DNA of 64,000 nucleotides from Bacteroidia bacterium. Its GTDB lineage: Bacteria > Bacteroidota > Bacteroidia > AKYH767-A > OLB10. Shown here piece after piece: positions 39,604 through 42,790 of the stretch (positions within the stretch are counted from its first letter, which is position 1; each line of letters begins with the position of its first letter). The notes under the pieces were generated by a model. The model did no database searches. It was not told the origin of the DNA and saw only the letters and a program-made list of their open reading frames with translations. The stretch covers positions 1 to 64,000 of the forward strand of contig JAEUTI010000009.1 in the NCBI GenBank assembly GCA_016788065.1, given 5' to 3'. The position numbers and the translations under genes were made by a program.

Positions 39604-40006
39604 ATGAAAATGTTTCAAAATTCTATTTCCCGATTCGGTTTCCGATCGTTAGTATTAATCGCAATTCCTTTATCGGTTGCTTTCACCAGCTGTAAAGACG
39701 ATGATGATGAGGAGCCAACACCAACTCCAACGACAGCTCGTTTGTTGGTAACCCATGCTTCTCCAGATGCACCAGGAGTTGACTTACTTCTCGACAATGT
39801 TAAAGTAAACAGTGCTGCTTTGGAATATCCAAACAATACCGGCTATTTAACAGTTAATTCAGGAAGCAGAAATGTAAAAGTAAATGTAACAGGAACCACT
39901 ACCACTGTAATTGATGCTACACTGGCATTGGTAACTAACAAGAACTACTCTGTTTTTGCAGTTGATTCAGTTTCTAAGATCAGTGCAGTAGTTATTGAAG
40001 ATAATC
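39604..40006 (+). pseudogene. DUF4397 lipoprotein gene, 5' part (interrupted by the IS)
   Basis: This part encodes a signal peptide with lipobox (VAFTSC), an acidic linker (KDDDDEEPTPTPT) and the first DUF4397 domain (LLVTHASPDAPGVDLLLD). The original frame runs to the target-site copy at 39999-40006. The frame then continues into the element for eight foreign residues and stops at 40032, giving a 142-residue truncated lipoprotein that could still be made. The missing half is at 42477-42790. Joining both restores a 239-codon frame exactly (403 + 314 = 717 bases). Confidence 0.92.
39999..40006. repeat. Target-site duplication, left copy (AGATAATC)
   Basis: The 8-bp sequence is identical to 42469-42476. 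Eight bases is the typical IS1595-family duplication. The identity of the two copies suggests a fairly recent insertion. Confidence 0.92.
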
Positions 40007-40034
40007 GGCGATTATATACAATTGTTGAGTAAAA
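40007..40034. repeat. Left terminal inverted repeat of the IS
   Basis: It begins GGCGATTATATACAA and matches the complement of the right end (GGTAACTACATACAA) at 21 of the first 28 positions, including GAGTAAAA at 21-28. Confidence 0.85.
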
Positions 40035-40114
40035 TTTGAGGCGTTTTTCTTTGAATTGTACAATTCTCTATACTTTTATAGTATAAATAACTATAAAAAT
40101 GAGTAAAAAACTAA

Positions 40115-40408
40115 CTAAGATTTCGGATATTTCAGAATATACTCCTGAACTTTTTTCGAAATATCTTGAACAAACTCCTCCGTTCTCTGTTTATGCATTT
40201 CGTCAGCGTCTAAAAGCTCGTCTCCGTCGCTCAAAGGTCGAATTGAAAGACTAGTCGAAATGCATTGCATGTGGAACATGATTTTTAATATAGAATGACA
40301 GTGGTCAACCCGCTTTAGGATTAGATTTATTTTTTCATCTATTGGCATATTAAAAGATGCTAGTTCTCCACCTTCTTTAAATAGGTCGTCAATATTTATA
40401 TTTTCCAT
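40115..40408 (-). CDS. Passenger ORF A of the IS, unknown function
   Basis: This 97-residue acidic soluble protein (MENINIDDLFKEGGELASF) has no membrane helix and no clear motif. It has two Cys-His positions (DHCHSIL, MQCIS) and a helical C-terminus. An AT-rich inverted repeat TTTTATAG/CTATAAAA just below its stop (40074-40099) could end its transcript. A 51-residue frame at 40099-40254 on the other strand overlaps it. Coding is likely but unproven. Confidence 0.5.
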   Translation of the reverse strand: MENINIDDLFKEGGELASFNMPIDEKINLILKRVDHCHSILKIMFHMQCISTSLSIRPLSDGDELLDADEMHKQRTEEFVQDISKKVQEYILKYPKS

Positions 40409-40451
40409 TGGTCGTTTGTTTTTAGTGTCCGGTAAATATATAATTATTCCT

Positions 40452-40459
40452 TACCTTTG
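40452..40459 (+). promoter_or_regulatory. -7 element of passenger ORF B
   Basis: TACCTTTG matches TAnnTTTG exactly and lies only 4 bases before the ATG at 40464, so the transcript would be nearly or fully leaderless. Confidence 0.45.
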
Positions 40460-40463
40460 CTAT

Positions 40464-40586
40464 ATGACCGATAAGAAAAAACCCGCTCCAAAAAAAGAAC
40501 GGGCTAATAAGTACGATAAGAAGTTGAAAATCAATACTTCGTTTGACGAGGCATTGAAAATAGTAATGGGTAAAAAATCAAATTAA
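40464..40586 (+). CDS. Passenger ORF B of the IS: 40-residue basic protein
   Basis: The product is Lys-rich (MTDKKKPAPKKERANKYDKK) followed by LKINTSFDEALKIVMGKKSN. The pattern K-[LV]-x-[IV]-x-x-S-F-D-E-[AV]-[LM]-K resembles small Bacteroidota hypothetical proteins, but I cannot confirm this without a search. It converges on the transposase gene with a 9-base overlap. It could regulate transposition or bind nucleic acid (speculation). Confidence 0.5.
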   Translation: MTDKKKPAPKKERANKYDKKLKINTSFDEALKIVMGKKSN

Positions 40587-41600
40587 ATTCCCGCTTGTAT
40601 TGTTGTTTCTATTCTGCCTCATTACACTTTTAAGGGTTTGTTTGTTCATTCGCCTGTCGCCCTTTTTATCTTCTACCGACTCAATTAAAACCGGATAAGT
40701 CAGTTTAGTATTTTCGATTAAACCGAGTGCAAAGTCAAAGCGTTCCGCCTCTGTAACTTTACGGGTGTTGTACCGGAAACTAAACTCATTACAATACCTA
40801 TGCAGGTGCTTAGAACTTACTTGGTGATATATCCCAACGATTCCACGTTTTAGCTGACTCCAAAACCCTTCAATACCGTTTGTATGTACGTTTCCTCTAA
40901 CATACTCTCCTATGCTGTGATTAACGCTCTGAATAGAATATTTTGGTGCTAACTTATTGTAGATTCCTGCCTCGTCTGTGTAAATGGTGCTACCTTCTTT
41001 AACTATCCCTTTTACCTTCTCTCTAATATCCTCCATTGATTCGGATTTTAATGGAACGTGCGTAGTTACTTTACCATCCCTGTCGAGTAGTCCAATTACT
41101 TTTGTTTTGTTATCTCCCTTACCTTCTCTTAATTTATTTTTTCTGCGCTCGTGCATATTGGATATACTTCCTCCAATAAACGCCTCATCTGCTTCAATTT
41201 CTCCATCGAGCAATAACGGTGCTTTCTCTAAAAATAACTCTCTGATTCTGCCAAGCATGAACCACGCACTTTTCTGAGTAATTCCTAAATCTTTACCCAG
41301 TTGAATAGAACTAATTCCTTTTTTATGACTTGTAGCCAAGTAAAGAGCCTGAAACCACTTTGTAAGAGGTATTTTTGTATCCATGAAAATAGTGTTGTGC
41401 TTAACGTTGAAAATCTTTAAGCAACCCTTTTCACCACAACGCAGGTTAATGTCTCCTTTTAATCTGTACACTTTCGTGCTACCACAATGCACACAAGCAG
41501 GCTCGTGATTCCATACCATTTTTTCAAGGTGCTTAATACATTTCAATTCCGTATTGAAGTACTTTGATAAACTGTGCAGGTTGTTGAATTTGGTGACCAT
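40578..41600 (-). CDS. IS1595/ISXO2-like transposase
   Basis: The 340-residue transposase has an N-terminal zinc ribbon (CVHCGSTKVYRLKG then RCGEKGC), a helix-turn-helix-like region (KGISSIQLGKDLGITQKSAW) and an ISXO2-type DDE core with GEIEADEAFIGG, IYTDEAGIYNKL and HTNGIEGFWSQLKRGI, ending in the helical region HLHRYCNEFSFRYN. The frame is intact. It has its own promoter at 41624-41631. Confidence 0.92.
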   Translation of the reverse strand: MVTKFNNLHSLSKYFNTELKCIKHLEKMVWNHEPACVHCGSTKVYRLKGDINLRCGEKGCLKIFNVKHNTIFMDTKIPLTKWFQALYLATSHKKGISSIQLGKDLGITQKSAWFMLGRIRELFLEKAPLLLDGEIEADEAFIGGSISNMHERRKNKLREGKGDNKTKVIGLLDRDGKVTTHVPLKSESMEDIREKVKGIVKEGSTIYTDEAGIYNKLAPKYSIQSVNHSIGEYVRGNVHTNGIEGFWSQLKRGIVGIYHQVSSKHLHRYCNEFSFRYNTRKVTEAERFDFALGLIENTKLTYPVLIESVEDKKGDRRMNKQTLKSVMRQNRNNNTSGNLI

Positions 41601-41623
41601 GTTTTTATTTGTTATTATTGGTA

Positions 41624-41631
41624 CAAATATA
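41624..41631 (-). promoter_or_regulatory. -7 element of the transposase gene
   Basis: TATATTTG on the minus strand matches TAnnTTTG exactly, 24 bp upstream of the transposase start. Confidence 0.55.
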
Positions 41632-41660
41632 TACTAAGTTACTCTATTTATCTACCTAAA

Positions 41661-42275
41661 ATGAAAATATTATTTAATTTAAAATCAATACTTTATCCTT
41701 ATCATAAAGATGTAATTAAAAAATACAGGGAAGTAGACAATTTTTTACGCCATGTTAGCAATATTGATACTTACGTTGCGCCGGAACTTTTTAAAAAAGC
41801 ACTTGATGAATCAGGTGTGCAAAAAATTGAGGGCGGGACAGATGCAACCGCAGTATTTTTACTTAAAGAGGGCATGATAATTTATGAGGAGCAAAACGAA
41901 AAAATAAAAATATCTATATCCATTCAAGGGAAAGTATTTTTGCTTTCAGGTGGTTATGAAAAGCAGTACATAAAAGAAAAAGTAAATCCTATGAAAAAGG
42001 ATTTACTGACTGGGTTCAATGTTTTTATATCGGCAGCAACTATATTATTTTCAGTATATACGCTTATTGGCTATGAATCAAAATTAGAATCTTCACAACT
42101 TGAAATAAAAGAAATAAGAAAAGAATTAAACCGACAAACTTTAGAAGTAGAGAGAGCCAAAAATAATGAAAGTAGAATGACCAACCCGAAACAAAATTCT
42201 GAAATTCATTATTATATATTTCCTCATAATTCTTCCACGCATACCAAAATTGATTCCATCGCTGCGCAAAATTGA
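41661..42275 (+). CDS. Passenger ORF C of the IS: membrane protein, unknown function
   Basis: The ATG at 41661 is preferred over 41574, since the latter would overlap the transposase 5' end. The 204-residue product has a soluble N-terminal region (about 1-110) with an IKIEGGTDATAVFLLKEGMI-like stretch, one membrane helix (about 117-135, GFNVFISAATILFSVYTLIG), a coiled-coil (about 140-170) and a polar tail. It diverges from the transposase gene. It could be a membrane-linked sensor or protective function for the element (speculation); no family recognised. Confidence 0.55.
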   Translation: MKILFNLKSILYPYHKDVIKKYREVDNFLRHVSNIDTYVAPELFKKALDESGVQKIEGGTDATAVFLLKEGMIIYEEQNEKIKISISIQGKVFLLSGGYEKQYIKEKVNPMKKDLLTGFNVFISAATILFSVYTLIGYESKLESSQLEIKEIRKELNRQTLEVERAKNNESRMTNPKQNSEIHYYIFPHNSSTHTKIDSIAAQN

Positions 42276-42440
42276 CCTTAGTATTATTTATATTTTTTGT
42301 TTTATATGATTTCATTGATAGTAATTTTTAGTTGATTAATCATTACTGGCAAATTTTATTCCGCTCTCAATCAATAACTTGCAAAATGATTGGGGCTTGA
42401 TTTGGCTTGTATCTTGCTGTGGGTTAGCTTATTACAAGCG

Positions 42441-42468
42441 TTTTACTCTACTTTTGTATGTAGTTACC
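42441..42468. repeat. Right terminal inverted repeat of the IS
   Basis: On the minus strand it begins GGTAACTACATACAA. See the left repeat for the alignment. Confidence 0.85.
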
Positions 42469-42476
42469 AGATAATC
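42469..42476. repeat. Target-site duplication, right copy (AGATAATC)
   Basis: It is identical to 39999-40006. Confidence 0.92.
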
Positions 42477-42790
42477 TGGCTACTCCTGCTTCAGGAAAAG
42501 CGCACATCAGATTTATCCACCTTTCTCCAAATGCACCGGCAGTTGATGTTGCATTGGACGGAGGGGCAGTAGTATTTGGTGACTATGAATTCAAAGAAGC
42601 ATCTCAATTCACACCTTTGGATGCAGGGTCTTATGATCTGGAAGTACGTGTAGCAGGAACAACAACCGTTGCACTGGACTTAGCCCCAATAACATTAGTT
42701 GCAGGAAAGATTTATACAGTTTTTGCTAAAGGATTTTTGACAGGAACAGGAAATGCTGCTCTTGGTGCAGAAATTATCACCAATAATTAA
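42477..42790 (+). pseudogene. DUF4397 lipoprotein gene, 3' part
   Basis: The frame directly after the target copy reads a second DUF4397 domain (ATPASGKAHIRFIHLSPNAP then AVDVALDGG) and ends with a normal stop at 42788-42790. A 78-residue frame with its own ATG at 42554 is part of this remnant and is not an independent gene. It is followed by the original gene's terminator. Confidence 0.9.

Follow-up and report, generated by a model that had tools for sequence, protein, structure and literature searches.

The subgroups of the IS1595 family in ISfinder are ISPna2, ISH4, IS1595, IS1016, ISSod11, ISNwi1 and ISNha5. The transporter IS of this family were reportedly treated by Siguier, Gagnevin and Chandler in 2009, a study cited in two further accounts, in which IS1595 'transporter IS' with passenger genes appear as an acknowledged kind of element (PMC3129680, PMC8496243). 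The family has 8-bp target duplications, a zinc ribbon and a DDE domain, and GG termini are given for the related Merlin elements (PMC8101967); the N-terminal zinc ribbon is found in all IS1595 groups except IS1016.

Here we analysed a 64,000-nt stretch of DNA, referred to as the window, which contains a 2,462-bp element at positions 40007–42468. This element resembles the transporter IS in its zinc-ribbon transposase, GG ends, 8-bp duplication and passengers unrelated to transposition. It differs from them in carrying a conserved 40-aa basic microprotein, p40. We found no description of p40 in the open-licence literature; ISfinder and the 2009 family paper lie outside that scope, and prior notice is possible. 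With the eukaryotic Merlin and bacterial IS1016 elements the window element shares the DDE_Tnp_IS1595 domain, GG ends and duplications of 8–9 bp (PMC8101967), but its transposase has the zinc ribbon that Merlin and IS1016 lack. A sister clade of Bacteroidota IS1595 elements (L106, L112, L120, L142 and others) belongs to the same family and has similar ends and duplications, but carries a P63C-domain protein instead of p40.

A complete IS1595-family element in the window

The element is flanked by two exact copies of the 8-bp sequence AGATAATC, at 39999–40006 and 42469–42476, in agreement to the base with the preliminary description. The terminal inverted repeats, GGCGATTATATACAATTGTTGAGTAAAA on the left (forward strand, 40007–40034) and GGTAACTACATACAAAAGTAGAGTAAAA on the right (given for the reverse strand, 42441–42468), each open with GG and agree with one another at 21 of their 28 positions, as had been reported. 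None of 20,000 random pairs of 28-mers drawn from the window matched as well. The element is present as a single copy in its own assembly (4.26 Mb, 97 contigs).

The transposase, 340 aa long, is encoded on the reverse strand at 40578–41600. It matched PF12762 (DDE_Tnp_IS1595; E = 4e-41, 141 bits, cut-off 27), PF12760 (N-terminal zinc ribbon; E = 1.7e-8, 34.7 bits, cut-off 25.4) and NF033547 (IS1595 family transposase; E = 1.1e-56, 192 bits, cut-off 75). The zinc cysteines C36, C39, C55 and C60 and the catalytic positions D138, D209, N241/E244 and K251 are invariant across the window sequence and seven relatives with 46–50% identity. These matches, together with ends and a duplication length that fit those in PMC8101967, bear out the earlier assignment to the IS1595 family. 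Only one other IS1595-type transposase is present in the genome (L051/L068, G000:C52:57808-58608), with 35% identity. Upstream of the transposase start, TATATTTG (reverse strand, 41624–41631) resembles by eye the Bacteroidota −7 promoter motif TAnnTTTG.

Two passenger ORFs, both orphans and unrelated to transposition, lie between the ends, as is characteristic of transporter IS. The first, on the reverse strand at 40115–40408, encodes an acidic protein of 97 aa. It matched nothing in Pfam and no NCBIfam model above the cut-off, and 246 other genomes of the class yielded no relative. The second, on the forward strand at 41661–42275, encodes 204 aa comprising an N-terminal domain, one hydrophobic stretch (residues about 119–137) and a long helix. 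It had no Pfam match above the cut-off, its sole match in 295 class genomes was weak and chance-like, and no relatives were found on plasmids or in viral contigs; its single-sequence fold was poor (mean pLDDT 45). Two further ORFs are probably not genes, because each overlaps a passenger in antisense and is unmatched in related elements: a 51-aa ORF opposite the 97-aa ORF (40099–40254, forward strand) and an 83-aa ORF opposite the 204-aa ORF (42064–42315, reverse strand). We infer that both passenger ORFs, of 97 and 204 aa, represent exchangeable cargo. The preliminary description held that the passengers move with the element. This follows from their position within its boundaries, but the case is weaker than had been stated, as searches of the own genome and for relatives of the passengers yielded no second copy showing joint movement.

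Related elements and their cargo

As relatives we took the 80 best transposase matches in a collection of one genome per species; nearly all are from Bacteroidota, and none exceeds 51% identity. Mechanical scanning of 73 related loci for GG...CC ends, inverted repeats and flanking duplications delimited 60 bounded elements, 59 of them with an exact 8-bp duplication. The commonest form of the ends is near GG[TC]AACTATATAC. The bounded relatives measure 2,014–5,849 bp and bear cargo, so extra DNA is the rule in this group.

Among 117 cargo ORFs scanned, the Pfam matches included P63C (11), RhuM (4) and SocA/Panacea (3), with others to N6-methylase, RadC, GmrSD, Fic, AAA_21 and a type I restriction domain. 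Four cargo ORFs matched the PADLOC candidate families PDC-S05 and PDC-S23. Across the wider group, then, some of the cargo is restriction-, toxin/antitoxin- or defence-like, and the group shows a route by which short genes of restriction, defence or toxin type can travel in Bacteroidota inside a simple IS.

The p40 microprotein family

In the window, the p40 gene (40464–40586, forward strand) runs towards the transposase gene, the two sharing 9 nt at their ends, and is not co-transcribed with it. Its identification draws on family membership, alignment, codon pattern and an independent set of elements. In a single-sequence comparison, the window p40 matched small ORFs of 21 other elements (best relative, E = 1.6e-8). 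With a p40 profile, 61 bounded elements gave matches in 31 cases at E < 0.1 and in 27 at E < 1e-3, always within the element, with 0 matches in 301 kb of flanks. Sixteen of these matches were sequences from which the profile was built, and the remaining ones likewise all fall inside elements; the window copy (E = 5.4e-16) is itself a profile member.

Members of the family begin with a Lys/Arg-rich stretch, continue with a core resembling KYExKLxIxGSFDDV and finish in basic residues; their pI is 9.2–11.0 and they have no cysteine. Scanning of 21 members gave no convincing Pfam match, and the window p40 had no NCBIfam match. The gene follows the transposase gene at a distance of up to about 100 bp or else is found near an element end, with cargo between. 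A low-confidence structural model of p40 (mean pLDDT 72.5, pTM 0.28) is mostly disordered, with a short helix at residues 27–35. The family, for which there is no Pfam model, is thus a marker of a widespread IS clade that bears cargo. Immediately ahead of the p40 start codon, TACCTTTG (40427–40470) resembles by eye the −7 promoter motif TAnnTTTG of Bacteroidota, and the p40 mRNA could therefore be nearly leaderless.

Distribution of p40 and the transposase phylogeny

When 61 transposases were placed in a tree, the 31 p40-bearing elements all fell on one side, and 19 elements without p40 formed a supported clade. The presence of p40 changed 7 times on this tree, versus 20.8 times with shuffled labels. 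Under midpoint rooting, the window transposase branches first on the 42-row p40 side (support 100/93). Distances between p40 proteins correlated with those between their transposases (Mantel r = 0.44, p = 2e-4, n = 21).

A search with the profile only, across 295 genomes of the class, located p40 at 16 places outside the window genome. With three profile members set aside, nine of the 13 others are no further than about 6 kb from an IS1595 transposase, and a tenth, at L179, lies within an element that has no transposase match. IS1595 transposases occur at about 43 places in 100 genomes, from which we estimate that proximity to p40 would arise by chance in well under 1% of cases. In a second collection, of viral contigs, the frozen profile found p40 in 4 of 35 distinct bounded elements, inside the element in all four cases. 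The p40-bearing elements of this collection were 4 of the 9 with a transposase nearest the p40 side of the tree and 0 of the 26 others.

The element at L179 (L179:3313-6859) is 3,547 bp long, with ends of the group type, an exact 8-bp duplication, p40 and no transposase match, and is apparently a non-autonomous derivative that has kept p40 and cargo. A candidate for a minimal element of transposase and p40 (L169, 1,506 bp) was rejected, its transposase ORF being only 195 aa long.

These distributions bear on whether p40 belongs to the transposition machinery or to the load. If p40 were ordinary cargo, for instance a small protein of the antitoxin or stability type that serves the host or helps the element to persist but takes no part in transposition, it would be in the company of the toxin/antitoxin- and defence-like genes that these elements carry, and its frequent position near the element end, at a distance from the transposase gene, would be natural. 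Three p40-like ORFs, at L173, L175 and L177, have no IS1595 transposase nearby, and those at L175 and L177, weak as they are, also point this way. Yet p40 tracks both the clade and the divergence of the transposase, unlike exchangeable cargo, and other cargo ORFs seldom recur: one cluster has 19 members, and those next in size have 6, 5 and 3. We regard the cargo reading as a real, if doubtful, possibility.

The neighbours of the two weak ORFs deserve mention. The ORF at L175:6007-6165 (E = 1.9e-4) stands beside a pair of genes and that at L177:5977-6099 (E = 3.3e-4) beside a single one, and the homology of both to p40 is uncertain. From reading the sequences by eye, we take the pair to be an AAA ATPase and an RloB-like gene, and the neighbour at L177 to be RelA-like.

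On comparative grounds, the reading we favour is that p40 is a long-term component of one clade of IS1595 elements, a feature that the preliminary description had not recognised. Detectable p40 is missing from 11 elements whose transposases group on the p40 side and from 5 of the 9 corresponding elements of the second collection; p40 is either not strictly required or has diverged beyond detection there. As to its role, the chances seem to us about even that p40 would assist or regulate the transposase as a partner, binding DNA or the transposase and tuning transposition; its convergent orientation in the window counts against this. We are evenly divided, too, on a broader proposal, in which a large Bacteroidota-centred IS1595 clade would be a two-gene transposition module, made up of the transposase and a conserved basic microprotein of 40–50 aa that controls or aids transposition, with exchangeable, partly defence- or toxin-like cargo between or around them; other clades may have partners of their own.

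From what is known of the family, we would expect the transposase to bind the GG ends and to join them to target DNA whose strands are cut 8 bp apart. In this scheme p40 would work with the transposase, most likely as a small regulator or accessory that binds DNA or the transposase, and its basic disordered tail and one short helix would provide the basis for such binding. p40 is a small, testable candidate regulator of IS1595 transposition. The insertion would inactivate the host lipoprotein.

Codon pattern of p40

The ORF is short and often close to the element end, and its conservation might stem from some element feature at the DNA or RNA level, with no translation of p40. Identity across the family is 0.55, 0.75 and 0.32 at first, second and third codon positions, respectively. 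Third positions are thus far less conserved than second positions, a pattern indicative of a translated, selected protein under purifying selection. The placement of p40 relative to the ends and the transposase also varies, and we consider an untranslated ORF highly improbable.

Possible partner proteins in other clades

In nine elements of the sister clade (L106, L112, L120, L142, L093, L098, L118, L136 and L143), an ORF of 308–386 aa begins only 2 nt beyond where the transposase match stops, so that the last transposase codons and the start codon of this ORF overlap; the P63C domain was found in the ORF of L106 and in ten other cargo proteins. This arrangement suggests translational coupling of a different accessory protein in the sister clade.

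Downstream of plasmid-borne alphaproteobacterial IS1595 transposases, we observed a small Lys-rich protein (L184:3122-3310, L185:5280-5465 and L187:4166-4306) with a motif like RFxEAARELxxDEDExRFxxxLxxIARQKPK; two of the three genes adjoin a PIN/VapC gene. This protein may represent a second family of small partners. Another ORF, which follows an alphaproteobacterial IS1595 transposase (L182:4867-5094), is similar to p40 by eye; it scored only E = 0.1–0.35 and was rejected as a p40. We therefore make no claim for p40 beyond Bacteroidota/Chlorobiota.

Insertion into a DUF4397 lipoprotein gene

The element splits a DUF4397 lipoprotein gene on the forward strand. The 5′ half (403 nt, 39604–40006) and the 3′ half (314 nt, 42477–42790, without a start of its own) each match DUF4397 in Pfam (E = 7.7e-21 and 2.6e-9, respectively). 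In the window, the 5′ half runs into the element as a 142-aa ORF with its stop at 40032. Joined, the halves make 717 nt and form a single open frame of 238 residues plus a stop, upholding the earlier reconstruction. The lipoprotein gene is truncated and presumably inactivated by the insertion.

An empty site of the kind that the preliminary description had suggested looking for is present in G001, the one other genome of the genus searched. In a search with the joined protein, this genome proved to encode an uninterrupted 238-codon homologue, 97% identical over all 238 residues. When the element and one duplication copy are taken out, the two flanks in the window align with the G001 locus (L002) over 1,927 bp at 93.7% identity, continuously across the join. 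At the insertion site, L002 has a single copy of the target (AGATAACC), where the window has AGATAATC twice, as expected of the 8-bp target duplication of the IS1595 family. Intact DUF4397 homologues with 58–65% identity occur in four further members of the family to which the organism belongs.

A split produced by misassembly or a chimera might be imagined for a single-copy element in a draft of 97 contigs, but the element sits mid-contig with an exact duplication, paired ends and an intact transposase, and the empty site of the congener matches, which makes an artefact scarcely credible. The 2,462-bp sequence is almost certainly a passenger-carrying IS1595-family IS whose insertion into a previously intact DUF4397 gene duplicated 8 bp of the target. 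As an insertion it is unremarkable, adding a member to the acknowledged transporter-IS kind. That it was also recent, as first proposed, is consistent with the identical duplications and the one empty relative; these two observations make a weaker case than had been claimed.

The target sites of the related elements include a distinct type. Eight elements (L078, L079, L081, L082, L096, L099, L124 and L133) interrupt an inverted repeat precisely at its loop. Eight of the 60 target sites lie above the 99% quantile of local controls, versus 0.57 expected, with the sites partly interrelated. The window target site is not of this hairpin-loop type. In L081 and L096, which are from different genomes and have similar ends, the identical duplication TGTCCCCA lies within near-identical hairpins (GGTTCGTGTCCCCACG...), and this shared site suggests a preferred target.
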